Source: Rhodanobacter humi
Lineage (GTDB): Bacteria > Pseudomonadota > Gammaproteobacteria > Xanthomonadales > Rhodanobacteraceae
Length of the DNA: 64,000 nucleotides
Assembly (NCBI RefSeq): GCF_041107455.1
Contig: NZ_JBGBPY010000001.1
Span: forward strand, 2,046,001-2,110,000
Reading direction: 5' to 3'
This document shows positions 49,711-61,688 of this stretch, piece after piece. The stretch's first letter is position 1, and each line of letters starts with the position of its first letter. Both the position numbers and the translations under genes were made by a program. The notes beneath the pieces were generated by a model. That model ran no database searches. It had not been told where the DNA came from and saw nothing but the letters and a program-made list of their open reading frames with translations.

Positions 49711-50616
49711 TTACCGCGCCGCCGCGAGCGCCGCCTGCTGCCGCAGCCACGGCTGCAGGTCGAGCTTCCAGATGCCGGATTGCCCGGTGAAGTAGACGCT
49801 GTGACCGTCCGGCGCGATGTGCGAGCCCCACGGCACGTCCTTGTTCGCGACCGCGCCGAGATCGATCGGCTTGCCCCAGTGGTCGCCCTCGCGGAACGCG
49901 ATGCACAGGCGGCCCAGGCCGCCCTTGGTCTTGCCGTAGTCGAACACGATGAAGGACTGGTCTGGCGCGACCGCGGGATCGTGGGTGGAGACGGCGGAAT
50001 TGCCCAGTCCCGCGCGCACCGGCGGCAGGTAATGGCCGTCGCGATACGTCGCATGCCAGGTATGCATCGCCTTCGTCTCGCGATCGAAGCGGAGGAAGTA
50101 CAGGCTGCCGTCCGCGGCGATGCTGGCGAAGTCGACGAACGCATCGCTGTTGACGACGGAGCCCAGCCAGACGGGTTGGCCCCAGTCCTTGCCCTCGCGA
50201 TCCACCCGCCACAGGTTGGAGCCCGGCCAGCTGCCGGCCGCGAAGTAGTCCTGCGTCAGCGGCTGGCCGCCCGGCGTCGGCGGGCGATCCGAACCGAACA
50301 GCAGGTAGCTGCCGTCGGGCGCCATCACCGGATCCTGGTCGTACCAGCGGCCGGAGAAGCCTGCGACCGCGGGCGGCGACCAGCGGCCATCGATCTTGTG
50401 CGACACCATGATGCTCTTGCGCTTGCCCGCGCTGCGGTCGAAGAACACCGTGTTGCCGTCGGGCGTGAAGGCCAGCGTGTCGTCGCTGTCGGGATGGAGG
50501 ATGCCGTCCAGCGTGACGGGCTGTGGCGTCGCGGTGGTGGTGTCGGCGGCATGCGTTGTGGCGGCAGCGAGCAGCAAGCCGGCGATGAGCAGGCAACGAG
50601 CCTTGGTGTGCTTCAT
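49711..50616 (-). CDS. exported PD40 beta-propeller protein, paralogue 1
   Basis: A 301-residue exported TolB-like propeller protein of unknown function. Signal peptide CLLIAGLLLAAATTHAADTT. Blades show the shared family motif QDPVMAPDGSYLLFGSDRPP, with others such as TLAFTPDGNTVFFDRSAG and THDPAVAPDQSFIVFDYGKT. The end IWKLDLQPWLRQQAALAAAR corresponds to the conserved C-terminal W-x-L-x-L-x-PWL of this cluster. Last gene of a four-gene operon; overlaps the preceding gene by ATGA. Confidence 0.85.
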   Translation of the reverse strand: MKHTKARCLLIAGLLLAAATTHAADTTTATPQPVTLDGILHPDSDDTLAFTPDGNTVFFDRSAGKRKSIMVSHKIDGRWSPPAVAGFSGRWYDQDPVMAPDGSYLLFGSDRPPTPGGQPLTQDYFAAGSWPGSNLWRVDREGKDWGQPVWLGSVVNSDAFVDFASIAADGSLYFLRFDRETKAMHTWHATYRDGHYLPPVRAGLGNSAVSTHDPAVAPDQSFIVFDYGKTKGGLGRLCIAFREGDHWGKPIDLGAVANKDVPWGSHIAPDGHSVYFTGQSGIWKLDLQPWLRQQAALAAAR

Positions 50617-51395
50617 CGTGCGTCCTCCACCGGCATCGCGTTGAGCAGGATGTACTGGCGCTCCGTGGCCTCGACGCGGCCGCACTGGGCGGAAGTCAGC
50701 GTTGCCGGTCGCGTGCTGACCAGTTCGTCGCTGAGCACGATGCCGTCGCGGAAGGTGGTCCAGCCGCGCCAGTGCGTGCGACCGGCTTGCCGCGCCAGCA
50801 CGCAGGGCTGGCCGTTGCGGGTCAGCGTGAGCGTCGGCTTGTCGTCTAGCCAGGCGCCGTCACCTTGGCCTTCGCGTTCCAGTGTGACGGTGCGGGTGGC
50901 GGGATCGAATGCCGTCACGGTCACCGTTTGTCGTCCGGCCGGCCCCAGCTCCCACGGCGCGGCGATATCCACTGTCCAGTGCTGGCCCACTTGCAGCGTG
51001 GCCGGCGCCGGGCCCCACAGGCGCGGGTTGTAGGCCAGCCCGCTGGCGTCGGTGTTCGGCACGCACTTGCCGTCGTAGCAGTTGCTGGCGCCAGCGTCGG
51101 GCAGCGCCACCGCGCCGCTGCCGGCGGGCCGGCCGTCGTAGCGGTAATCGATGTGCAGCTGCGGCGGCACGGATGCGGCGTCGGTCACGCGGTAGGTCGC
51201 GGTGCCGCTGATCCGGTGCACCAGTTCGGCGAAACCGGGCGCCCGGACCGCGATGGCGCGCGAGAACACGTTGGCGAAGCTGGCGCCGGCGCGGTAGGCG
51301 GGCGTCAGCGCCGGTGCCGTGGCGGGAGCCGCGGCGGCCGCGGTGGACAACAACAGCGCGGCCAGCAAGGACGACAGCATGCGGGTAGTGGACAC
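50613..51395 (-). CDS. exported protein of unknown function in the PD40 operon
   Basis: Secreted protein of 260 residues. The GTG at 51395 has GGAGGC 4 bases upstream; an ATG 5 codons later is the alternative. Signal peptide MLSSLLAALLLSTAAAAAPA. The mature part is beta-rich (VHRISGTATYRVTDAASVPP, TLQVGQHWTVDIAAPWELGP, RTVTLEREGQGDGAWLDDKP) with two Cys in SNCYDGKCVPN probably forming a disulfide. Not recognised as PD40. Its place between two PD40 genes with an ATGA overlap suggests it works with the propeller proteins. Confidence 0.75.
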   Translation of the reverse strand: MSTTRMLSSLLAALLLSTAAAAAPATAPALTPAYRAGASFANVFSRAIAVRAPGFAELVHRISGTATYRVTDAASVPPQLHIDYRYDGRPAGSGAVALPDAGASNCYDGKCVPNTDASGLAYNPRLWGPAPATLQVGQHWTVDIAAPWELGPAGRQTVTVTAFDPATRTVTLEREGQGDGAWLDDKPTLTLTRNGQPCVLARQAGRTHWRGWTTFRDGIVLSDELVSTRPATLTSAQCGRVEATERQYILLNAMPVEDAR

Positions 51396-51412
51396 AGGGC
51401 CTCCGCGGCGGA

Positions 51413-52402
51413 TCAGTGGTCGATGCCGTGCGCGCGCAGCACGTCGGCGATGTCGAAGCGCCACAGGTTGCGCGAGCCGTTCAGCGGTTGCTGCAGGCGC
51501 TGCTGCAAGGTGGCGGTGTTGTCGCGCGGCTTGGGGAAAGACACCTCGTCGCGCCGGTTGCTGGAAACGTACAGCTCGCCGAAGCGCGGCCCCAGCGCAG
51601 GCGCGTTCTCCAGCGACGGGCTGTTGACGTCGCCCGGCAGGTGCAGCGGCTTGCCCCAGCGGCCGTCCGGCTGGCGGAACACGATGTAGAGGTCGGCGCT
51701 GCCCAGCGAATCGCCCTCGTTGCCGGCGTAGACGAGGAAGCGTTGCCGCGGGTCGATCGCCGGATCCATGCGGTTGCGCGCGACGTCACCGAGCTCCACG
51801 CGCTGCGGCGCCGCGTAGCCTTGCGCGGTGCGCCGCGCCACGTAGATCTGGTAGGCGGCACCGGAGTCTGGCCGGTGCGCGGAGAAGTAGATGTCGCCGT
51901 TCGCCGCGACGGACGGGTTGTAGATCATCGCGCCGTCGTTGAGCGCGCCGTCCACGTGCACCGGCGCGCCCCAGCTTCCGTCAGGCTGGCGCTGCACGAA
52001 CCAGAGGTTGGTGCCGGCGAAGCGATGGCCGCCCATTTCCGTCGTCAGCGGTGCACCGCCCGGCTGCACGGGACGGTTGGAGACGAAGTACAGCCATCGG
52101 CCGTCCGGCGCCAGCGCGGGTTCGGAGTCGTGCCACTCGCCGGAGAATGCGGCCACCTGCGGCGTGCCCCAGTGCCCGCCAGTCCGATGCGAGACCATGA
52201 TGGTGTCGTCGCGTTCGGCGAAGTCGGAGCGCATGAAGTACAGCGTGTCGCCGTCCGGCGTCACGGCGGCCGAGGTTTCCTGCAGGCCAGTGGAGATCGT
52301 GCCGGGGCCGACCAGTTCGCCGTGCGTCTGTGCGCGCGCTGCGATGGGTGCGGCAAGTGCGACAGCGATGCCGGCGGCGAGGATGAGTGCACGTGGGGAC
52401 AT
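51413..52402 (-). CDS. exported PD40 beta-propeller protein, paralogue 2
   Basis: A 329-residue member with signal peptide ALILAAGIAVALAAPIAARA. Blades: TSAAVTPDGDTLYFMRSDFA, DSEPALAPDGRWLYFVSNRP, VAANGDIYFSAHRPD, and MDPAIDPRQRFLVYAGNEGD. The end LWRFDIADVLRAHGIDH is the most diverged version of the shared tail. A long insertion (SSNRRDEVSFPKPRDNTATL) precedes it. Second gene of the operon, 20 bp after paralogue 3 and 17 bp before the unknown exported protein. Confidence 0.84.
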   Translation of the reverse strand: MSPRALILAAGIAVALAAPIAARAQTHGELVGPGTISTGLQETSAAVTPDGDTLYFMRSDFAERDDTIMVSHRTGGHWGTPQVAAFSGEWHDSEPALAPDGRWLYFVSNRPVQPGGAPLTTEMGGHRFAGTNLWFVQRQPDGSWGAPVHVDGALNDGAMIYNPSVAANGDIYFSAHRPDSGAAYQIYVARRTAQGYAAPQRVELGDVARNRMDPAIDPRQRFLVYAGNEGDSLGSADLYIVFRQPDGRWGKPLHLPGDVNSPSLENAPALGPRFGELYVSSNRRDEVSFPKPRDNTATLQQRLQQPLNGSRNLWRFDIADVLRAHGIDH

Positions 52403-52422
52403 GGGGACTCCGATGGGCGAAT

Positions 52423-52860
52423 TCAGGCGGCGTAATGCGCCGCCAGCCAGGGCGCCAGCGACAGGCGCCAGATGTGGTTGTTGCCGTTGTCCCACGCGCG
52501 CATGCGCGCCAGGTCGGCGCGGTTCGAAGTGAACACCAGGTAGGAGCCGTCCGGCGCCATCGCCGGATCGTGGTCCTGCCACTGCCCGGAGAACGACGCG
52601 ATCCGCGGCGCGGACCAGCCGTCGCGCGTGCGGTGCGATTCCATGATGAAGCCGCTCGCACCCGCCTGCTGGTCGAAGTACACGATGGCGCCATCGGGCG
52701 CGAAGGTGAGGCAGTCCACACCGACAGGGCCGGAGATCGCGCCGGGCGCGAAGATCTCCGGCTGCGGCGAGGTCGCTTCGGCGGCGCGCAGGCCGACGGC
52801 GGCGAACGCGCCGATCAAGGCGAGCGCACCGGCCAGCAAGGCGAACAGGCGATGGAGCAT
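52423..52860 (-). CDS. exported PD40-type protein, paralogue 3 (internally shortened)
   Basis: Only 145 residues. N-terminal part (EIFAPGAISGPVGVDCLTFA, then DHDPAMAPDGSYLVFTSNRA) matches paralogue 6 closely; the sequence then passes straight to ARMRAWDNGNNHIWRLSLAPWL, the normal C-terminus. About 180 residues of propeller are missing in frame. Signal peptide LFALLAGALALIGAFAAVGL. First gene of its operon, with three AlgR-like boxes upstream. It may be a folded fragment or a decaying gene; the intact frame and signal argue for expression. Confidence 0.75.
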   Translation of the reverse strand: MLHRLFALLAGALALIGAFAAVGLRAAEATSPQPEIFAPGAISGPVGVDCLTFAPDGAIVYFDQQAGASGFIMESHRTRDGWSAPRIASFSGQWQDHDPAMAPDGSYLVFTSNRADLARMRAWDNGNNHIWRLSLAPWLAAHYAA

Positions 52861-52930
52861 GCGGGTGCCCCGGCATGATGACGATGACCAGGAGTCTGCG
52901 CAGCGGCATCGGCGTGCCGCCGCGGGTTTG

Positions 52931-52983
52931 TGACGAGCGGAGTGAAGGCGCGTGACCAGCGGTTGCTCGCGCGGGGCGAGCGG
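52931..52983 (-). promoter_or_regulatory. three AlgR/LytTR-like boxes, PD40 operon A
   Basis: Plus-strand copies TGACGAGCGG (52931), TGACCAGCGG (52953) and GGGCGAGCGG (52974), 22 and 21 bp apart; read on the gene strand they are near ACCGCTCGTC. They lie 71-123 bp upstream of the first start codon of the operon. Published AlgR sites read ACCGTTCGTC and LytTR proteins bind direct repeats with this phasing. The rest of the 394-bp gap (52861-53254) shows no gene. Confidence 0.65.
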
Positions 52984-53254
52984 TTCGATCGCATCGGGAT
53001 GTCAGGTGCCTCGATGCATCGCGCGCTGCTCTTGCTTGTCGCGGTGTTCGGCACGCCAAACGTGCAGAGCAAGAGGCTTCGTCTGTTTGCTGTCGGCCGA
53101 TACCTGACATTGCCGAACCGCAAAGCCAACCCCGGACCCGCCGGGAAGCATTGCTCGAAGCCGGCAACCGGGCGGATGGTGCCTGCCGGCTAGCACATCG
53201 CAACCATCCCCACCCATGGGCCATCACGTGTCCGCGGTGGCATGTCGCGGGCTC

Positions 53255-54139
53255 CTAGCCTGCTGCCTTCGATGCAGCTCCGAGGAAGCGTTCGACGATC
53301 TCCGGCAGCATCGGCTCGACGGGGAGCGTGTAGTGGGTGGTGTTCGGCAGGATGGCGAACTCGTTTGCGGGCCGCAGGGAGCCATCGATGCCGGCATCGC
53401 GCTGACCGCCGCCCAACGCCTTCCAGAACTCGACCATGTGTTCGGGCCGGATGGCGTCAGCGTCGGCATAGACCAGCAGTGTGCGTGCCTTGAGCCTGGC
53501 GACGTCGGCGCTCCAGTCCCAAGGGCGTTTGGTCAGGTCACCGACCTTCCTGAAGAGCTTGGTCCAATCGACATCGGGATAGGTCTTCCCCAATGGCGAT
53601 GCCTTGACGGCAGGGCCGAGCGTGGCAGCGTTGGCCTCCAGCTGTTTGAAGGCCACCACCCCCTCCGGATAAAAGCTGTCCTGCCTCATCGCCGCGGACA
53701 CGAGCACGAGCCGGTCGACCACATGCGGATGGCGAATGGCGGTCTCCAGCGCGACGCCGGAACCCAGCGAGTAACCCATGACGTCGGCCTTGCCGAGGTT
53801 CAGGTGACCGATCAAAGCGGCGATGTCGTCGCCCATCGTTTCACTGCGCAGCGGCCTGTCGGTGTCTGGCGTACGCCCATGTGCCTGCAGATGGGGGGCG
53901 ATCACCCGCCGGCCCCTGGCCAGTTCCGCCAGATTGCTCCCGAAGCTGTCCGGGTCGATGCTACCGTGGAGAAGAATGAGCGGCTTGCCGGCGCCGTGCA
54001 CGCTGTAAAAGAGATGCTGGCCATTGACGTCGGCAAAGTTTCCGTTCGGGACGGCGAGGGTCTTCTTGGCTTGAATGGGAAGAGCGGCTGTCAGCACGGC
54101 GGTCGCCATGGCCGTCTTCAGGAAATCGCGTCTGAGCAT
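53255..54139 (-). CDS. Tat-exported alpha/beta hydrolase
   Basis: A 294-residue alpha/beta hydrolase. The ATG at 54139 is chosen for its GAGGA Shine-Dalgarno and the twin-arginine signal MLRRDFLKTAMATAVLTAAL. Core motifs: LILLHGSIDPDSFGSNLAEL (oxyanion loop), VMGYSLGSGVALETAI (nucleophile elbow G-Y-S-L-G), LLVYADADAIRPEHMVEFWK (acid) and NTTHYTLP (His). Tat use suggests folding in the cytoplasm before export. Role unknown; it lies between the two PD40 operons, 90 bp after the SRPBCC gene and co-directional. Confidence 0.88.
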   Translation of the reverse strand: MLRRDFLKTAMATAVLTAALPIQAKKTLAVPNGNFADVNGQHLFYSVHGAGKPLILLHGSIDPDSFGSNLAELARGRRVIAPHLQAHGRTPDTDRPLRSETMGDDIAALIGHLNLGKADVMGYSLGSGVALETAIRHPHVVDRLVLVSAAMRQDSFYPEGVVAFKQLEANAATLGPAVKASPLGKTYPDVDWTKLFRKVGDLTKRPWDWSADVARLKARTLLVYADADAIRPEHMVEFWKALGGGQRDAGIDGSLRPANEFAILPNTTHYTLPVEPMLPEIVERFLGAASKAAG

Positions 54140-54229
54140 ATCGTCCTCACGTGGCGCCGGACTGGCCGGCGCGGCGGTGATCGTGCGTTTCATCGGCATC
54201 CCTTCCATGCGCCGGTGGCCGCGGTGTGG

Positions 54230-54730
54230 TCACGATCTGTCTGCGAGCAACTCATCCAGCTGCGCGAACTGTTCGGGCAGGCCTTCCGCCGAGCCGGCGA
54301 GGGCTTCGTCGAGGGCCGCTTCCGTGGGGTAGCGTTCGTGGAAGGTGACCCGCGTCTTGCCGGCATTTTCCTCGAACGTCACCGTGGTCACGGCGCCCTC
54401 GTCGCTTTCCTCGTTCGTCCATGCGATGCGCTTGTTCGGCGTCACTTCCCGGTACGTGCCGAAGAACGCCATCGGCTGGTCGAAGGCCGGATGGCTGAAC
54501 ACGAGGCGATACGCGCCCCCGGTGCGAACGTCCATGTCGCACGAGACCAGCGACATGCCCGCCGACTTCGGAACCCACCAAAGCTTGAACCATTCGGGAT
54601 TGCTCCACGCCTCGAAGACGATGTGCGCCGGGGCATCGAACGTTCGCGTCACGACGAGTTCGTGGTCGGACTTGCGCTCCACAACGGTGCGGTTGGTGGC
54701 GGCGGAACTACCTTCTTTTGCTTTGGGCAT
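54230..54730 (-). CDS. SRPBCC/AHSA1-family protein
   Basis: START-like lipid-binding fold protein of 166 residues: ELVVTRTFDAPAHIVFEAWS, KLWWVPKSAGMSLVSCDMDV, RTGGAYRLVFSHPAFDQPMA and VTFEENAGKTRVTFHERYPT are typical AHSA1 pieces. Overlaps the end of the upstream ArsR-type gene by 23 bp, the standard pairing in which the ArsR protein regulates the SRPBCC gene. Ligand unknown. Confidence 0.92.
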   Translation of the reverse strand: MPKAKEGSSAATNRTVVERKSDHELVVTRTFDAPAHIVFEAWSNPEWFKLWWVPKSAGMSLVSCDMDVRTGGAYRLVFSHPAFDQPMAFFGTYREVTPNKRIAWTNEESDEGAVTTVTFEENAGKTRVTFHERYPTEAALDEALAGSAEGLPEQFAQLDELLADRS

Positions 54731-55070
54731 CTGCCTTCTCCTTGCGTTTCAAGTGATCGACAAGCTTGTCCAGCGCGTCGAAGCGCGCGCTCCAGAGTTC
54801 GCGGTGCCGCTCGATCCAGGCGGCCTCTTCTTCCAGCCGGCGTCGTCCGAGCGTGCAGGTTCGTACGCGCCCGACTTTCTCCGTGGTCACGAGCCCCGCC
54901 TGCTCCAGGATGCTGACGTGCTTCTTCATGCCCGTGAGGGTCATGCGAAACCGTTGGGCAAGGTCGGTGATCGAGGCGTCTGAGTCCCCGAGCTGCTCCA
55001 GCACGCCGCGCCGGGTGACATCGGAGAGCGCGGCGAACGTTGCGTCGAGGCGGGCTTGATAGTGAACCAT
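54708..55070 (-). CDS. ArsR-family winged-helix regulator of the SRPBCC pair
   Basis: A 120-residue regulator: LDATFAALSDVTRRGVLEQL, SITDLAQRFRMTLTGMKKHV (recognition helix) and LVTTEKVGRVRTCTLGRRRL (wing). No metal-binding Cys set, so it senses something else, as usual for ArsR-SRPBCC pairs. The start codon is inside a perfect 20-bp palindrome that probably serves as its own operator. Confidence 0.92.
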   Translation of the reverse strand: MVHYQARLDATFAALSDVTRRGVLEQLGDSDASITDLAQRFRMTLTGMKKHVSILEQAGLVTTEKVGRVRTCTLGRRRLEEEAAWIERHRELWSARFDALDKLVDHLKRKEKADAQSKRR

Positions 55071-55080
55071 ATGGTTCACT
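55061..55080 (-). promoter_or_regulatory. perfect 20-bp palindrome over the ArsR-type start codon
   Basis: AGTGAACCATATGGTTCACT, perfect dyad. It contains the start codon of the regulator (55068-55070). Binding here would block both transcription start and translation initiation. AT-rich compared with surroundings. Confidence 0.7.
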
Positions 55081-55355
55081 GTAAGGCGAGCATGGGTGAT
55101 TTGCAAGCGAATGACCCCGCGGGCGCAAATCGCACGTGGCTCCTCTGCCGTTCCGAACCCGGAGTGCGCATGCCGAGCATGGGCAAAGTTCCGGCCGGCG
55201 GCTTTGGGGCAGCCGGATCAAGACGCCGGACGATTCCTCAGGGTCGCAAGCTGCCGCCCACGTTCTCGGGAATCCGACCCTATTCGCCGATATGTCCAAT
55301 CATCGAAGGCCGCATCAGCTGATGCATGCGTCTTGATGGGTCGGCACCTGGACCG

Positions 55356-56099
55356 TCAAGGCAGCCCCAGCACCGCCCGCGCCCCAGCGCGGAAGCGCCG
55401 GCTCAAATCCAGCCGCGTGCCGTCGTGCAGCACGATCTCGGCGTTGCCGTTGAACAGCGGATGCACTTCGCGGATGCGCTCCACGTTGACGACCGTGCCG
55501 CGGTGGATGCGCAGGAAGCGCGCGGGGGCCAGCGTTTCCAGCAGGTGGCTCAGCGTCTCGCGGTGCAGGTAGTGCGCGCCGTCGGCGTGGATCTGCACGT
55601 AGTTGCCGTCGGCACGGATCCAGTCGATGGCGTCCACCGCGATCACCCGGATGTGCTCGCCCACGCGCACGCTGATGCGCTGCAGGTGGCTCGCGTGCGT
55701 CGTCGCCGCCGCGGGCGATTGCAGGCCTTGCCAGTGCCGGCGCACGCGCGCCAGCGCCTGGTCGAAGCGCGCCTGGTCGATGGGTTTCAGCACGTAGTCC
55801 AGCGCGCCGGCGTCGAACGCGCGCAGCGCGTGCTGGCCGTAGGCGGTGGTGAACACCACCATCGGCAGCGCATCCGGTTTCAGCTGGTGCAGCAGCTTGA
55901 AGCCGTCCATGCCGGGCATGCGGATGTCGAGGAAGATCAGGTCGGGCGTGAGCGCGGCGATCGCCTGCAAGGCCTCGGTGGCGTTGCCGCATTCGCCCAC
56001 GATGGCCACGTCCCCATGCGCGGCCAGCGCCTGGCGCAGCGCGAGTCGCGCCAGCACCTCGTCGTCCACCAGCAGGGCGCGGATCGTTGCGGCGCTCAT
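55356..56099 (-). CDS. LytTR response regulator (AlgR-like)
   Basis: Response regulator of 247 residues: receiver with DDE at 12-14, phospho-acceptor Asp58 (LIFLDIRMPGMDGF) and Lys in DYVLKPID; C-terminal LytTR DNA-binding domain (about 140-245, IDWIRADGNYVQIHADGAHY, FLRIHRGTVVNVERIREVHP). The ATG overlaps the kinase stop. The LytTR family binds direct repeats such as AlgR boxes, and these occur at both PD40 operons here, making it their likely regulator. Confidence 0.93.
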   Translation of the reverse strand: MSAATIRALLVDDEVLARLALRQALAAHGDVAIVGECGNATEALQAIAALTPDLIFLDIRMPGMDGFKLLHQLKPDALPMVVFTTAYGQHALRAFDAGALDYVLKPIDQARFDQALARVRRHWQGLQSPAAATTHASHLQRISVRVGEHIRVIAVDAIDWIRADGNYVQIHADGAHYLHRETLSHLLETLAPARFLRIHRGTVVNVERIREVHPLFNGNAEIVLHDGTRLDLSRRFRAGARAVLGLP

Positions 56100-57187
56100 G
56101 CGGCATGCTCGCGGAACGGCAGGCGCAGCTCCACCCGCGTGCCGCCGCTGTCGCGGCGCTGCAGCTCCAGACTGGCGTCGCCGCCGAACAGCATCGCCAG
56201 CCGTGCGCGGGTGTTGGTGAGGCCGATGCCCTCGTTGGCGCCATCGGGCGGCAGGCCCAGGCCGTCGTCGTCCACGCGCAACACCAGCTCGTCGCCGTCG
56301 CGTTGGCCGAGCACCTGCAGGCTGCCGGGTTCGGCCTTGGCCAGCAGGCCGTGGCGCAGCGCGTTTTCCACCAGCGGTTGCAGGATCAGGTTCGGCACGG
56401 CGGCGCGCAGCGCGTCGTCGGCCACGTCCAGCCGCGTGCTGAGCCGGTCCTGGAAGCGCACCTGCTGGATGTCGAGATAGCAGCGCAGGAATTCCAGCTC
56501 GCGCGCCAGCGGCACCTGCGGCGCGTGGCGTTCCTCCAGCGTGAGGCGCAGGAAGTCGCTGAGCCGCGCGATCATCAGCCGCGCCTGCAGCGGGTCGGCC
56601 AGCGCCAGCGCGGAGATCGCGTTGAGCGTATTGAACAGGAAGTGCGGTTGCAGCTGCATGCGCAGCGCCTGCAGCTGCGCCTGCGCCAGCTGCGATTCCA
56701 GCAACGCGCTGCGCAACTGCTCGTCGCGCAGCCGGCGGCGCGAATCCATCCCGCGCAGCACCGCCAGCACGACCCAGTAGGTGAGCAAGGCCAGGTGGAA
56801 GCTGTAGGCGAACTCCATGCGCACGTACTGGCCCAGCGTGTGCACGTTCGGCATGCGGCCGGGGCCGCACAGATACCAGAACACCACCAGGTGCGCCGTC
56901 ATCTGCGCCAGCGCCACCGCCAGCGAAGCGGGCACGTGCACGGCGAAGAAGCGTCGCCAGCCGTGTCCCGCGCTTTGCCGTCCCAGCCAGCCCACCAGCG
57001 GCGCCAGCGCCATCCACAGCCAGAAGTTGACCAGGTTCCAGGCCAGGTTGCGCAGCCAGCCCGGCGGATAGCCCTCGCTGATCGCGGCCAGTCCGCCGCT
57101 GAGCGCGTAGGACAGCGCCAGCAGCGTCCAGAAGCCGAAGATCAGTCCCCAGGTTTTCAGTCGCTGCGTTGCGCTGCGGTCAGACAC
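56096..57187 (-). CDS. LytS/AlgZ-family sensor histidine kinase
   Basis: Membrane histidine kinase of 363 residues with four helices in the first 165 residues (FGFWTLLALSYALSGG, NLAWNLVNFWLWMALAPLVG, AVHVPASLAVALAQMTAHLV, SFHLALLTYWVVLAVLRGMD), then the His_kinase motif MQLQPHFLFNTLNAIS (phospho-acceptor His) and HATPase_c with ILQPLVENALRHGLL and DDDGLGLPP. Start chosen as GTG at 57187 (GAGG upstream); an ATG at 57265 would add 26 residues. No external sensor domain, so the signal is likely sensed in the membrane. Confidence 0.9.
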   Translation of the reverse strand: MSDRSATQRLKTWGLIFGFWTLLALSYALSGGLAAISEGYPPGWLRNLAWNLVNFWLWMALAPLVGWLGRQSAGHGWRRFFAVHVPASLAVALAQMTAHLVVFWYLCGPGRMPNVHTLGQYVRMEFAYSFHLALLTYWVVLAVLRGMDSRRRLRDEQLRSALLESQLAQAQLQALRMQLQPHFLFNTLNAISALALADPLQARLMIARLSDFLRLTLEERHAPQVPLARELEFLRCYLDIQQVRFQDRLSTRLDVADDALRAAVPNLILQPLVENALRHGLLAKAEPGSLQVLGQRDGDELVLRVDDDGLGLPPDGANEGIGLTNTRARLAMLFGGDASLELQRRDSGGTRVELRLPFREHAA

Positions 57188-57279
57188 GGGAACCTCGCCG
57201 ACGTACCACCCGATGGCGGGCCAGTGTGCGCGGCGATGGCCGTCCGGGACAGTGCCTGAAGGCATTGCCGGCGTCGGGC

Positions 57280-57855
57280 CTAGGCTCGTGGCGCCTGCGC
57301 GTCGCGCGTGCATGACTGCTCGTCGCCCAGCTGCCATGCGCCGCTGCGGTTCCGGTAGGTGTAGGTCACCCGGTAGGCGTCGTCGCCGTGACGCTGGAAC
57401 ACGAACCGGTCGAGATAGCCGCTGGTCGCGACGTTCTCCAGCGTCAGCGTGTCGCCCACCCAGCCGGACGAGGTGTAGCGCCGCTCGCCGCCGAAGTTGT
57501 CGAACACCGTCGCGGTGAAACGCCTGGCGGCCTTGTCGTAGCCCCACCACGCATCCGCGAGGTAGCGGTTCGGCGCACCGTCCACGTGCCGCATGTGCAG
57601 CCATTGGCCGCCGAGTTCGATGCCGAACGTCTCGCGGGAAGTGATCGGCTTGCCGTTCGCGAAGCGGCCCGCGCAGCGCCAGTGGCCGGCGAACCCGGCC
57701 AGCGGTGCGAGCGCCGGCGTGGCGTCGGCCTGCACCGGCGCGGGGGCGGCGAGCAAGCCGGATGCAGCCGCCAGCACGGCGAAGGCGAGGGATGCTGCGC
57801 GTGGCGCGCGTGACGAGCGGCTCATCGATGGGGTCCCGAGGCGTGCGCGATTCAT
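57280..57855 (-). CDS. exported DUF1579-like protein
   Basis: Exported protein of 191 residues; signal region ASLAFAVLAAASGLLAAPAP. The mature part, LAGFAGHWRCAGRFANGKPI, WLHMRHVDGAPNRYLADAWW and FDNFGGERRYTSSGWVGDTL, resembles DUF1579/lipocalin-like calycin proteins. Its ATG overlaps the stop of PD40 paralogue 4. The kinase gene begins 92 bp later (or 14 bp with its longer start), so all are probably one transcript. Confidence 0.72.
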   Translation of the reverse strand: MNRARLGTPSMSRSSRAPRAASLAFAVLAAASGLLAAPAPVQADATPALAPLAGFAGHWRCAGRFANGKPITSRETFGIELGGQWLHMRHVDGAPNRYLADAWWGYDKAARRFTATVFDNFGGERRYTSSGWVGDTLTLENVATSGYLDRFVFQRHGDDAYRVTYTYRNRSGAWQLGDEQSCTRDAQAPRA

Positions 57856-58745
57856 GGCTTCACCGTCGCGTGTTGCGCCAACCACGGGCCGAGCGCGAGG
57901 CGGTGGATGCGATGGTCGGCGGCGCTGAAGTACAGTGTCTTGCGATCCGGGCCCAGGCGCGCCTCGTCGCCGGCGACGCCGAGGTCGACCGGCGCGCTCC
58001 AGCTGTCACGCGTGGCGAAGGCGATGAACAGGTCGCCGCCGTTGGACGGCGCCGGCGGGCGATCCGAGCTGAAGACGAGGAAGGAGCCGTCGGGCGCCAC
58101 CGCCGGATCGTAGTCGGAGTGCGCGTCGCCGCCGCCGAGCGCCAGCGCTTGCGTCGCCTGATAGCGGCCGTGGACGTAGCGGCTGCGGTAGAGCCGGAAT
58201 GCGCCGTTCGCCGGGTCCACGCGCACGAAGCGGAGGCTGCCGTCCTTCGTCACCGTCGGCGAAAAGATCGACGTGCCGGCGTTCACGACATCAGGCAGGC
58301 GTTGGGGCGTGCCCCAGCCGTCGCCGACGCGATCCACCCGCCACAGGTTGCCGCCGCGGCCGGGATACGCCTTGCCGCCCCAGTCGCCGTCCAGCGGATG
58401 GCCGATGCCGTTCGCCGGCCGGTTGGAGACGAACACCAGGTAGGAACCGTCCGGCGCCATCGTCGGCTCGAAGTCCATCCAGCGGTCCGAGAACGGCGCC
58501 TGCATCGGCGCCGACCATGTGCCGTCGTGGCGCCGGGCGATGTAGAGGCGTCGCGCCGTGCCGCTGCCGCGGGTGAACACCACCGTGCCGCCGTCCGGCG
58601 CGAAGGCAGGCGAGGCGTCGCGCGCCTCCGTCCACGGGCCAGCGGCTGGCGGCGCCGCGATGTTCGCGGCGGCGCGCACGGCGGGCGCGGAGACGGCGGT
58701 GCCCAGAGCCAGGGCGAGGATAGGAACCAGGTGTGGGCAACGCAT
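57852..58745 (-). CDS. exported PD40 beta-propeller protein, paralogue 4
   Basis: A 297-residue member, signal peptide HLVPILALALGTAVSAPAVR. Blades: DASPAFAPDGGTVVFTRGSG, FEPTMAPDGSYLVFVSNRPA, VTKDGSLRFVRVDPANG and YDPAVAPDGSFLVFSSDRPP. C-terminus IHRLALGPWLAQHATVKP. ATG at 58745 preferred because GAGGA lies 8 bases upstream; an ATG at 58760 would add 5 residues. Third gene of operon B. Confidence 0.84.
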   Translation of the reverse strand: MRCPHLVPILALALGTAVSAPAVRAAANIAAPPAAGPWTEARDASPAFAPDGGTVVFTRGSGTARRLYIARRHDGTWSAPMQAPFSDRWMDFEPTMAPDGSYLVFVSNRPANGIGHPLDGDWGGKAYPGRGGNLWRVDRVGDGWGTPQRLPDVVNAGTSIFSPTVTKDGSLRFVRVDPANGAFRLYRSRYVHGRYQATQALALGGGDAHSDYDPAVAPDGSFLVFSSDRPPAPSNGGDLFIAFATRDSWSAPVDLGVAGDEARLGPDRKTLYFSAADHRIHRLALGPWLAQHATVKP

Positions 58746-58783
58746 CGAGCTGTTCCTCATGGGGAAGGAAAGGTAGTCAGGAC

Positions 58784-59725
58784 TCAAGGGCCGCGCCCGG
58801 CATGCGCGTCAAGCCATGGCGCCAGCGACAGCTGCCAGATGTGGTCGTGGCCGTTGTTCCACACCGCGTCCGCTTGCGCGCCGGCGGCGCGTCGGTCGCT
58901 GTAGAAGTACAGCGTGCGGTGGTCGGGACCGAGCTGGGCGCCCATGCTTTCCTTGCCGCCGTTGACCGCGTCGCCGAGATCCTGCGGCGCGCTCCAGCCT
59001 TCCGGTGTGCGGAACGCGATGGCGAGGCGGTACGGCGCCTGCGGTGCGTGCTTGATGCTGACCACGATGAACGAGCCGTCCGGTGCGATCGCGGGATCGC
59101 GTATCGTCGCGCCCGCATCGCCCAATGCCACCACCCGAGGCGTTTCGTACTGGCCGTCGCGATACGCGGAGCGCAGCAGCGCGAAGTCGCCGCGCGGCCC
59201 GGCGCAACCGATGAAATAGAGGCTGCCATCGGCGGCGATGCTCGGCGAGGCGATCAGCGAGCAGCGGTTGACGACGTCTGGCAGGCGCACCGGCGCGCCC
59301 CAGTGGTCGCCCTGCCAGTCCACCCGCCACAGGTTCATGCCCTGCGCGACGTGGCGCTTGCCGCCATGCACCGCGTCGAGCGGTGGATCGCCCGGCGTGG
59401 CCGGGCGGTTGGAGGCAAACAGCAGGAACGATCCGTCCGGCGCCATCGCCGGATCGAGGTCGTGCCAGTGCCCGGAGAATGGCGCCACCGTCGGCGTCGA
59501 CCAGTGGCCGTCACGGCGGCGCGATTCCATCAGCGTCGAGCCGTCGCCGGTGGCGCGCATGAAGTAGACCGTGGCGCCGTCCGGCGTGAATGCGGCGGCG
59601 CCATCGTCGGAGGCTCCGGGGATGGTGTTCGAAGCGAAGACCGCGGGCACCGCGCTCGCTGACCTCGCCGCATGGGCGGTGGATGCGAGAATGAACAGGG
59701 TTGAGAAGACGATGGACAGGCGCAT
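58784..59725 (-). CDS. exported PD40 beta-propeller protein, paralogue 5
   Basis: A 313-residue member, signal peptide LSIVFSTLFILASTAHAARS, AGGAAG Shine-Dalgarno. Blades: GAAAFTPDGATVYFMRATGD, LDPAMAPDGSFLLFASNRPA, SIAADGSLYFIGCAG and IRDPAIAPDGSFIVVSIKHA. End DHIWQLSLAPWLDAHAGRGP. Second gene of operon B, 98 bp after paralogue 6 and 38 bp before paralogue 4. Confidence 0.85.
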   Translation of the reverse strand: MRLSIVFSTLFILASTAHAARSASAVPAVFASNTIPGASDDGAAAFTPDGATVYFMRATGDGSTLMESRRRDGHWSTPTVAPFSGHWHDLDPAMAPDGSFLLFASNRPATPGDPPLDAVHGGKRHVAQGMNLWRVDWQGDHWGAPVRLPDVVNRCSLIASPSIAADGSLYFIGCAGPRGDFALLRSAYRDGQYETPRVVALGDAGATIRDPAIAPDGSFIVVSIKHAPQAPYRLAIAFRTPEGWSAPQDLGDAVNGGKESMGAQLGPDHRTLYFYSDRRAAGAQADAVWNNGHDHIWQLSLAPWLDAHAGRGP

Positions 59726-59823
59726 GCTGACGCTTCCTTTGCGTGGGATTCCGCCGCCGCGGCGATGGGTCGAGCATCGATGGGCGGAGTGGGATTGACC
59801 GCCGGCTGGAGGTGCGATGCGCA

Positions 59824-60840
59824 TCACGGAAGGCCGCCACCGGAGGCGCGATGCGCGTCCAGCCATGGCGCCAGCGACACGCGCCACAGGTGATCGACGT
59901 CGTGGTCCCACGCCAGCGTGCGCGCGACATCGCGCAGAGCCTGCGCGCGTGCGCGCGGATAACGCACTGGGTCCGCATGCCGGCCGGCAAAATACAGGGT
60001 GCGGCCGTCCGGGCCGAGGTGCGCGCTGGACGGCTGGTAGCGGTTCAGGGCGTCGCCCATGTCCACTGGCTGGCTCCAGTGATCGCCTTCGCGGAACGCG
60101 ATGTGCAACCGGGGGCTGGCGCCACCGCCGTCGGCGACGTCGTACACGATGAACGACTGGTCGGGCGCGATCGCGGTGTCGTATTCGTGGCTGGTGGCGT
60201 CGCCCAGCGACAGCCGGGTCGGCGCGAGGTAGTGGCCGTCGCGGCAAGTGGCGCGATACAGGTGCGTCGCGCCGCCGCGGCGCGGGCCGGGCGAGTCGAA
60301 ATACAGCGTGCCGTCGGCGGCGATGCTGGCGCCGTACATTTGCATGCTGATGTTGACGACGTCCGGCAACGGCGTCGGCGTACCCCAACCGTGCGCGTCG
60401 CGATCGACGCGCCACAGATGCATGTCGCCGCTGGGCACGAGTTTTCCGGTGCGCGACGACACCGTGGCAAGCGGTTTGCCATCGGCGGTCGCTGGCCGGT
60501 TCGAGCTATAGATCAGGTACGAGCCATCGGGCGCCATCGCCGGATCGTGGTCTTCCCATTGCCCCGAGAACGGCGCGAGGCGCGGCGTGGACCATGCGCC
60601 GTTCACCCGCTGCGAGATCATGATCGCGTGATCATGGGCAGGCCAATTGGACAGGTCGAACACCAGCGTGTCGCCATCGGGCGTGAAGGCTGCCGAATCC
60701 ACACTGGCCGGTCCGGAGATCACGCCCGGCGCGAGGATTTCGGGCACGGCGCCGGGACGGGTTCGTGCGGCGCCGGGTGCTGCCGCACCAGCGCTCGCGT
60801 ATGCGACCAGCAGAGTCGCGAACAAAGTCGACGATCGCAT
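59824..60840 (-). CDS. exported PD40 beta-propeller protein, paralogue 6
   Basis: A 338-residue member, the longest; signal peptide SSTLFATLLVAYASAGAAAP. Blades: SAAFTPDGDTLVFDLSNWPA, DHDPAMAPDGSYLIYSSNRP, SIAADGTLYFDSPGP and YDTAIAPDQSFIVYDVADGG. End DHLWRVSLAPWLDAHRASGG. Closest to paralogue 3 in the first 130 residues and in promoter layout. GAGGGG precedes the ATG. First gene of operon B, with three AlgR-like boxes upstream. Confidence 0.85.
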   Translation of the reverse strand: MRSSTLFATLLVAYASAGAAAPGAARTRPGAVPEILAPGVISGPASVDSAAFTPDGDTLVFDLSNWPAHDHAIMISQRVNGAWSTPRLAPFSGQWEDHDPAMAPDGSYLIYSSNRPATADGKPLATVSSRTGKLVPSGDMHLWRVDRDAHGWGTPTPLPDVVNISMQMYGASIAADGTLYFDSPGPRRGGATHLYRATCRDGHYLAPTRLSLGDATSHEYDTAIAPDQSFIVYDVADGGGASPRLHIAFREGDHWSQPVDMGDALNRYQPSSAHLGPDGRTLYFAGRHADPVRYPRARAQALRDVARTLAWDHDVDHLWRVSLAPWLDAHRASGGGLP

Positions 60841-60916
60841 GCACGCTGCCCCTCGTTCGGTTACAGGTGGTGTTCGAGCAAGTTAGCGTCGGGGTCGACG
60901 TGCGTCGCTCGTCCGG

Positions 60917-60968
60917 TGACCGCCGGTTTGATCGCCATGACGAGCGGTGTGCATGCGCGGACAAGCGG
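60917..60968 (-). promoter_or_regulatory. three AlgR/LytTR-like boxes, PD40 operon B
   Basis: Plus-strand copies TGACCGCCGG (60917), TGACGAGCGG (60938) and GGACAAGCGG (60959), each 21 bp apart; on the gene strand the middle one reads ACCGCTCGTC. They lie 77-128 bp upstream of the operon's first ATG, almost exactly as at operon A. The gap 60841-61175 (335 bp) also holds the promoter of the divergent DUF4440 gene and no other gene. Confidence 0.65.
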
Positions 60969-61175
60969 TGGGGCGCACGACACCGAAGAAGAGCCGCTTC
61001 GTTACGGACACGGTGAAGCAATAGTCGTCGCCGCAGCGTTGCGCGAGCCGTCGGGCACGGCATTAGCGCCGTTGATCACGCCCGGGTGGGTGATCGTCAC
61101 GAAGCCGCGGTCATTCGCGGCGACGCCGCGCAGGCTGTTCCCGCGGCACTGTCGCCGCATCAACGGGACAACGTC

Positions 61176-61688
61176 ATGTCTTGCCGTACTTTCCGTCGTG
61201 TTCCTGCACGTCTTGCCTGCTTCGGCTTGTGGCTGGGCGCCGCCGCGATCGCTGTGCCAGCCGTGGCCGCGTCGCAGGACAGCACTCCCGCCGCGGAGGA
61301 AACCGCACACACCGCCGCCGCGGTGAAGGCGGTGGACCAGCACTGGCTGGAGGCCGAGGAGAGCGGCGATGCCGCTTGGCTGGACGGCATGTTGATGCCG
61401 GACTACCGCTCGGTCGGTGTCGCGGGCACGTTTGCCACGAAGGCCGGCATCGTGGCGCATGCCGCAAAGAACCGTGGCTCGGATGCGATGAAGCAGCAAG
61501 TGGCCGCGTGGCAAGCAGCGCATCCGGTGGACCAACAGGTGACGCTGCAGGGCGACACCGCGATCCTCAGCTTCGTCAGCGCCGCGCCCGCGACCAAGGG
61601 CAAGCTGTATTCCTCGGACGTGTTCGTCTACGTCGACGGTCGCTGGCGCGCGCTGTATTCGGCGCATACCGGACTCGGCAAGGACTGA
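61176..61688 (+). CDS. exported DUF4440/SnoaL-like protein
   Basis: Exported protein of 170 residues with an NTF2-like fold. Signal peptide LACFGLWLGAAAIAVPAVAA. The mature part, AVDQHWLEAEESGDAAWLDG, MLMPDYRSVGVAGTFATKAG and DTAILSFVSAAPATKGKLYS, then VYVDGRWRALYSAHT, is typical DUF4440. Ligand or enzyme role unknown. Divergent from PD40 operon B with a shared 335-bp region, so it may be under the same regulator. Confidence 0.83.
   Translation: MSCRTFRRVPARLACFGLWLGAAAIAVPAVAASQDSTPAAEETAHTAAAVKAVDQHWLEAEESGDAAWLDGMLMPDYRSVGVAGTFATKAGIVAHAAKNRGSDAMKQQVAAWQAAHPVDQQVTLQGDTAILSFVSAAPATKGKLYSSDVFVYVDGRWRALYSAHTGLGKD

Follow-up and report, generated by a model that had tools for sequence, protein, structure and literature searches.

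The question raised by this stretch of the Rhodanobacter humi genome, a window of 64,000 nucleotides, is what controls two neighbouring operons for secreted PD40 propeller proteins, here called A and B, each of which is preceded by three tandem boxes. We consider it probable, at roughly 85%, that the control lies in operon B itself: its membrane LytS-type kinase (56096-57265) would phosphorylate the adjoining LytTR regulator (55356-56099), which would bind three direct repeats of RCCGCTCGTCAC, located a short way upstream of a poor -35 element, and would activate sigma-70 promoters, those of its own operon B (positive autoregulation) and of the neighbouring propeller operon A. Further targets, which may differ by species, would include the divergently transcribed DUF4440 gene and a small number of dispersed genes, most of which encode exported proteins.

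The boxes are 10 bp long and lie on the minus strand, which is the gene strand of both operons. Those of operon A are ACCGCTCGCC (box 1, 52975..52984), ACCGCTGGTC (box 2, 52954..52963) and TCCGCTCGTC (box 3, 52932..52941), and those of operon B are ACCGCTTGTC (box 1, 60960..60969), ACCGCTCGTC (box 2, 60939..60948) and ACCGGCGGTC (box 3, 60918..60927); the last of these has three mismatches to the consensus and is followed by AC, which matches the family consensus. The steps between boxes are 21 and 22 bp in operon A and 21 and 21 bp in operon B, and box 3 stands 71 bp from the first ATG of operon A (52860) and 77 bp from that of operon B (60840). An earlier note on this DNA had described three tandem copies with this phasing and these distances, and both measurements were reproduced. 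Pooling of 63 boxes from the loci of relatives and the window gave the consensus RCCGCTCGTCAC, with one box per two helical turns. With direct repeats at steps of about 21 bp, both triplets have the arrangement looked for in an operator of a LytS/LytTR system.

The strength of the two triplets was then assessed within the window and the genome. Scored against ACCGCTCGTC, the two best triplets of the window reached 27/30 and 26/30; when each upstream region was shuffled 2000 times with its dinucleotide composition kept, no shuffle equalled the real scores (shuffle maximum, 22), and the two operon triplets ranked as the top two among 728 overlapping 350-bp segments covering both strands of the 64 kb. 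A sequence-only model, R1, was built from 18 sites of 10 relatives, with the window sites excluded. Its top two matches in this genome were the window sites (28.6 and 28.0 bits; E 6.6e-6 and 1.0e-5), which were also its only matches over the whole 64 kb at E<=0.02. The third match in the genome, at C1:527553 (26.6 bits), lies before a gene for an exported M23-type peptidase, and another, at C1:3549733, is probably a false match within conserved coding DNA. Comparable triplets are thus uncommon in the rest of the genome, a point on which the earlier note had made its proposal depend.

The conservation of the locus was examined in a first set of 60 relatives. Of these, 14 had a regulator orthologue (61-91% identity), all of the same family and 6 of the same genus; among the matches listed for 24 genomes that belong to the order but not to the family, full-length regulator matches did not exceed 45% identity. 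Together with the window, the 14 relatives gave 15 loci of about 20 kb each, chosen for the regulator, in which the kinase was present in 15, PD40 genes in 12, a DUF4440 gene in 12 (one of them weak), the DUF1579-like gene in 9 and gene A3 in 7. Triplets were sought at a threshold of >=23/30 in 17 loci, namely these 15 and two paralogue loci (L052 and L053). The scan returned 29 rows, corresponding to 21 distinct sites, compared with 3 rows in the reversed sequences, and the two paralogue loci contained none. At least one triplet at this threshold was present in 11 of the 14 relatives with the regulator; three (L042, L045 and L051) had none, and the model later detected sites in L042 and L045. 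The triplets occur at three kinds of place, immediately downstream of the regulator gene, ahead of the operon's first gene and ahead of the divergent DUF4440 gene, and back-to-back sites were found in ten loci (model, E<=0.02). The triplets are therefore kept in the corresponding promoters across genera, which answers the check on orthologous promoters that had been proposed with the first description of the boxes.

Next, the co-occurrence of site and regulator was surveyed in 137 genomes drawn from the family, with cut-offs of E<=1e-70 for the regulator and E<=0.002 for the site, the latter with stricter filters that lose weak matches. The regulator was found in 47 genomes and the site in 43; 37 had both, 6 the site only, 10 the regulator only and 84 neither (Fisher p 4e-18), and after removal of the 10 training genomes the site was present in 27/37 genomes with the regulator and in 6/90 without it (p 7e-14), although the surveyed genomes are related and so do not count as independent trials for these p-values. 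The sites also lie near the regulator: 57 of the 72 are within 10 kb of its gene, 22 of these no more than 500 bp after it and on the same strand. The remaining 15 comprise 9 located elsewhere in regulator-bearing genomes and 6 in genomes without the regulator. The tracking of the boxes with the regulator argues for the regulon suggested earlier, and the place of the kinase and regulator genes at the end of operon B is consistent with autoregulation; autoregulation and direct control by this regulator are nevertheless read from sequence and are to be taken as probable.

The sites keep a fixed distance to what appears to be a core promoter. Columns beyond the boxes were counted in the 69 of 72 model matches that reach model position 46 or beyond, aligned at box 3. 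Outside the model, G at +21 was conserved in 65/69, A at +43 in 54/69 and T at +47 in 53/69, and a [CT]A[GAC]NNT hexamer starting at +41 to +44 was present in 48/69 sites versus 1-7 in eight control windows. A first, hand-picked set had contained 49 of the 72 matches; it left out 16 matches of <=21.0 bits, three that scored 21.9-28.0 bits (two of which lay near retained sites) and four that stopped short of the model end. In that set the counts were 48 for G, 40 for A, 37 for T and 36 for the hexamer, with 1-5 in controls, so that the count of 69 sites gave the same result. When the 49 were reduced to 38 sites less than 60% alike, the G, A and T columns were each above every control column. 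We infer from these columns a sigma-70 promoter with a poor -35 element at +19 to +24, a -10 element at +42 to +47 and a 17-bp spacer. In operon B the putative -35 element would be GCGACG (60903..60908, minus strand), the third base of which is the G conserved in 65/69, and the putative -10 element TAACTT (60880..60885, minus strand), 17 bp after it; in operon A the putative -10 element would be CAGACT (52893..52898, minus strand), which lies one base more distant than is usual among the sites. On the assumption that transcription starts 7 nt after the -10 element, the box centres fall near -48, -69 and -90, and the 12-bp box 3 of the aligned sites ends 7 bp before the putative -35 element. 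As judged from these positions, boxes on one face of the helix have the geometry predicted for an activator.

Could the boxes instead serve as repression operators, at which the regulator or its unphosphorylated form keeps the operons off? There is a precedent in CoxC, which, in the available part of the source (PMC11347149), binds three LytTR repeats and represses. The CoxC repeats overlap the -35 element, whereas box 3 here stands clear of it, and a degenerate -35 element is what is expected of an activated promoter; we regard repression as unlikely. A still less likely arrangement is that another of the five LytTR proteins of this genome binds the boxes and that the neighbouring pair is a mere passenger. 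The genome does encode four LytTR proteins besides this regulator, and a genome outside the family, G049, carries a site near a different LytTR gene. It was the only one of the 14 genomes searched outside the family to have an R1 match below E 1e-3 (E 2.2e-4), and its site (L089 7997-8046) lies before a gene for an exported alpha/beta hydrolase; the LytTR gene, at a distance of about 2 kb, has 42% identity to the regulator of the window. Against a different binder, across the 137 genomes the sites follow the orthologue of the neighbouring regulator and mostly lie less than 10 kb from its gene, and the locus of the closest paralogue in this genome (L053, 43% identity), the one locus among the four other LytTR proteins to be examined with wide flanks, has no triplet.

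That the boxes arose by chance, or as a compositional or coding artefact of GC-rich DNA, can be given almost no credence. A loose triple pattern defined post hoc had exactly two matches in the 4.15-Mb genome, both of them the operon sites, yet read backwards it also had two, so that the pattern alone is weak evidence; some of the model matches, moreover, fall in conserved coding DNA (L085, L087, L091, L093 and L095). These observations are outweighed by the shuffles, the model held out from the window, the recurrence of the sites ahead of corresponding genes and the constant position of the core promoter, and a chance origin of the two window sites was rejected on the shuffles, the reversed controls and the held-out model.

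Activation by the neighbouring regulator, which we prefer, has several observations to contend with. Besides the additional LytTR proteins, the G049 site, the matches in coding DNA and the relatedness of the surveyed genomes, the following weigh against it: 10 of the 47 regulator-bearing genomes lack a site at the cut-off and 6 of the 90 regulator-less genomes have one. One of these six, G072, has a good site (L210 3039-3087) before an acyltransferase gene, as in a regulator-bearing genome, and has no regulator orthologue at E<=1e-70; it is possible that this site is an orphan target. There is no PD40 gene within the 20-kb locus examined in 3 of the 14 regulator-bearing relatives (L042, L050 and L051), and the DUF4440 gene of the window (61176-61688) has no model match upstream, unlike its counterparts in relatives. 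Finally, the putative -35 element is very degenerate, and a generic consensus promoter scan detected none in the region.

The genes themselves are organised with ATGA overlaps or intergenic gaps of <=98 bp, and all genes of operons A and B are on the minus strand. Operon B begins with three secreted PD40 propellers, B1 (338 residues, 59824..60840), B2 (313 residues, 58784..59725) and B3 (302 residues, 57852..58760), followed by B4 (57280..57855), a secreted DUF1579-like protein (21.3 bits, under the Pfam cut-off of 25.2), the histidine kinase (56096..57265, with an alternative GTG start at 57187) and the regulator (55356..56099), the presumed binder of the boxes. The kinase has about four hydrophobic helices; His_kinase (PF06580) and HATPase_c were the only domains recognised in it, and the domain search of the kinase protein found no recognised sensor domain. 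The regulator matched PF00072 and PF04397, both over cut-off, and its residues D12, D13, D58, T85 and K105 are invariant in 15 sequences, which indicates an intact receiver. The domain matches thus bear out that a LytTR regulator and a LytS-type kinase sit at the 3' end of operon B. Operon A consists of A1 (52423..52860), a propeller of 145 residues with a large in-frame internal deletion, the counterpart of which at the corresponding place in a close relative (L038) has 318 residues; A2 (51413..52402), a secreted PD40 protein of 329 residues, predicted to form a beta-propeller and kept near the regulator in other genera; A3 (50613..51380), a secreted protein without Pfam match, predicted to be all-beta; and A4 (49711..50616), a secreted PD40-like propeller of 301 residues (20.0 bits; Pfam cut-off, 20.9). 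The eight non-regulatory proteins all have signal-like N-termini as judged by eye. Divergent from operon B, on the plus strand, is the gene for a secreted DUF4440 (NTF2-like) protein (61176..61688).

The propellers are PD40/TolB-like. They did not reach the TolB equivalog model (at most 35 bits, cut-off 343) or the models for PorE of the type IX secretion system and for CHU_0125 OmpA (at most 80 bits versus 600, in partial model matches). The system had been called a secretion regulon; a regulon of secreted proteins is supported, and the word secretion is a misnomer, with no secretion machinery seen among the genes of the two operons.

Genes for an ArsR-type regulator, an AHSA1-domain protein and an alpha/beta hydrolase (53255-55106) lie between the regulator and operon A; the earlier note mentions neither these nor the deletion in A1 nor the lack of a PD40 match in A3. 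In most relatives compared, operon A is close behind the regulator; in L038 about 1.5 kb of other DNA separates the regulator from the boxes. L042 has no operon A, and close ArsR and AHSA1 homologues lie downstream of its regulator, so that the idea of this stretch being unique to the present genome proved wrong. In L047 (8908-9495) the DUF1579-like gene opens with an apparent propeller N-terminus, as if a deletion had fused the two. Separately, a metagenome-assembled genome of the Bacteroidota (L129 8002-10756) encodes a PD40 protein, a LytS kinase and a LytTR regulator consecutively, and the association of the three may therefore occur outside this family.

The candidate targets away from the cluster differ by species and are rich in exported or membrane proteins. 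The site before an M23-type peptidase gene is common to this genome (G000; L084 6054-6105, minus strand) and a close relative (G007; L088 6039-6090). Other sites were found before a dispersed PD40 propeller gene (G006; L086), berberine-type FAD oxidase genes (G144 and G125), genes for acyltransferase-3 proteins (G072, by Pfam; G155, by eye), a gene whose product has a signal-like N-terminus and matches no Pfam family (G127) and a DUF4440 gene (G115, by eye). L090 may be a further case: about 220 bp past its site begins the gene of a small protein whose N-terminus is signal-like. By contrast with these candidates, the five sites inside conserved coding DNA mentioned above were rejected by eye as regulon members, as were seven (L092, L094, L096, L205, L207, L208 and L209) with no convincing exported gene after the site. 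A propeller gene of this genome outside the cluster (C1:395157-396101) had no triplet of >=20/30 in the stretch scanned.

The locus was also compared with described systems. LytTR sites are described as repeats of 9-11 nt with 11-13 nt between them (PMC4847170, available part), and most such regulators bind upstream of the -35 element and activate (PMC11347149, available part). The regulator is 37% identical to E. coli BtsR of the BtsS/BtsR (YehU/YehT) system over nearly its full length, and BtsR is its best NCBIfam model (198.5 bits, under the equivalog cut-off of 246). The operator oligonucleotide of btsT (yjiY) contains GCCGCTCA, ACCGCTTA and ACCACTCA at 20 and 21 bp (PMC4847170), which resemble the first eight bases of the box here; each E. 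coli box agrees with the consensus at 6-7 of 10 positions, and the boxes stand upstream of btsT in the same direction. In the E. coli sequence upstream of btsT (L179 2501-2558), a third BtsR-like box, GCCGCTCA, is 20 bp upstream of the next, and the 58-base operator stretch was matched in 4006 of 5426 E. coli genomes. The sensor domain of BtsS, 5TM-5TMR_LYT (PF07694), was not found in this genome, the E. coli control being positive, and the target of BtsS/BtsR is a pyruvate transporter, whereas the targets here are exported proteins.

The likeness to AlgR put forward in the earlier note holds in part. The core CCGTTCGTC of AlgR from the AlgZ/AlgR system of Pseudomonas aeruginosa (PMC4064291, available part) is one base off the consensus here, and the boxes of some relatives, such as L041, are exactly CCGTTCGTC. 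As far as the same part of PMC4064291 goes, AlgR sites need not be repeats with 12 bp between them and AlgR has different targets. The comparison with AlgR covered the binding core, and the best named model of the regulator is BtsR. Similar in architecture are RcoM1 and CoxC, LytTR regulators of carbon monoxide oxidation, which bind three direct repeats about two helical turns apart, as here; the available text of PMC11347149 describes RcoM1 as an activator bound upstream of the -35 element and CoxC as a repressor with repeats overlapping it. In the same text the RcoM1 repeat is TTCNNGCA, versus RCCGCTCGTCAC here, the targets of both proteins are other ones, and CoxC is a single protein with both a sensor and a LytTR domain, whereas kinase and regulator are separate here. 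The statement that no described system matches must accordingly be narrowed: three-repeat LytTR operators are known from RcoM1 and CoxC (PMC11347149, in part), and by analogy with these the mechanism would be of a known kind, while the regulon, its targets and the conserved promoter plan seem new as far as the literature searched shows.

Our best guess for the role of the regulon is an envelope response, with the exported propellers as periplasmic binders of some ligand or partner. More speculatively, the propellers, together with the DUF4440 and DUF1579-like proteins and the all-beta protein, could form a periplasmic sensing or feedback arm that reports to the kinase; this idea, which we hold to be doubtful, arises because the kinase seems to be almost without a periplasmic domain of its own. 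If it were true, a co-encoded and expanding PD40 family that binds a ligand would constitute a new kind of envelope-sensing circuit, for which the gene row in L129 would be an independent case. The analysis turns an unnamed gene row into a defined regulon with a mapped operator, a core promoter and a likely regulator in many members of the family, and it provides a well-sampled set of three-repeat LytTR operators, in dozens of natural promoters, that lends itself to comparisons of spacing and order. It also offers, through a reporter or a deletion of the regulator, a handle on the function of the exported PD40, DUF4440 and DUF1579-like proteins.

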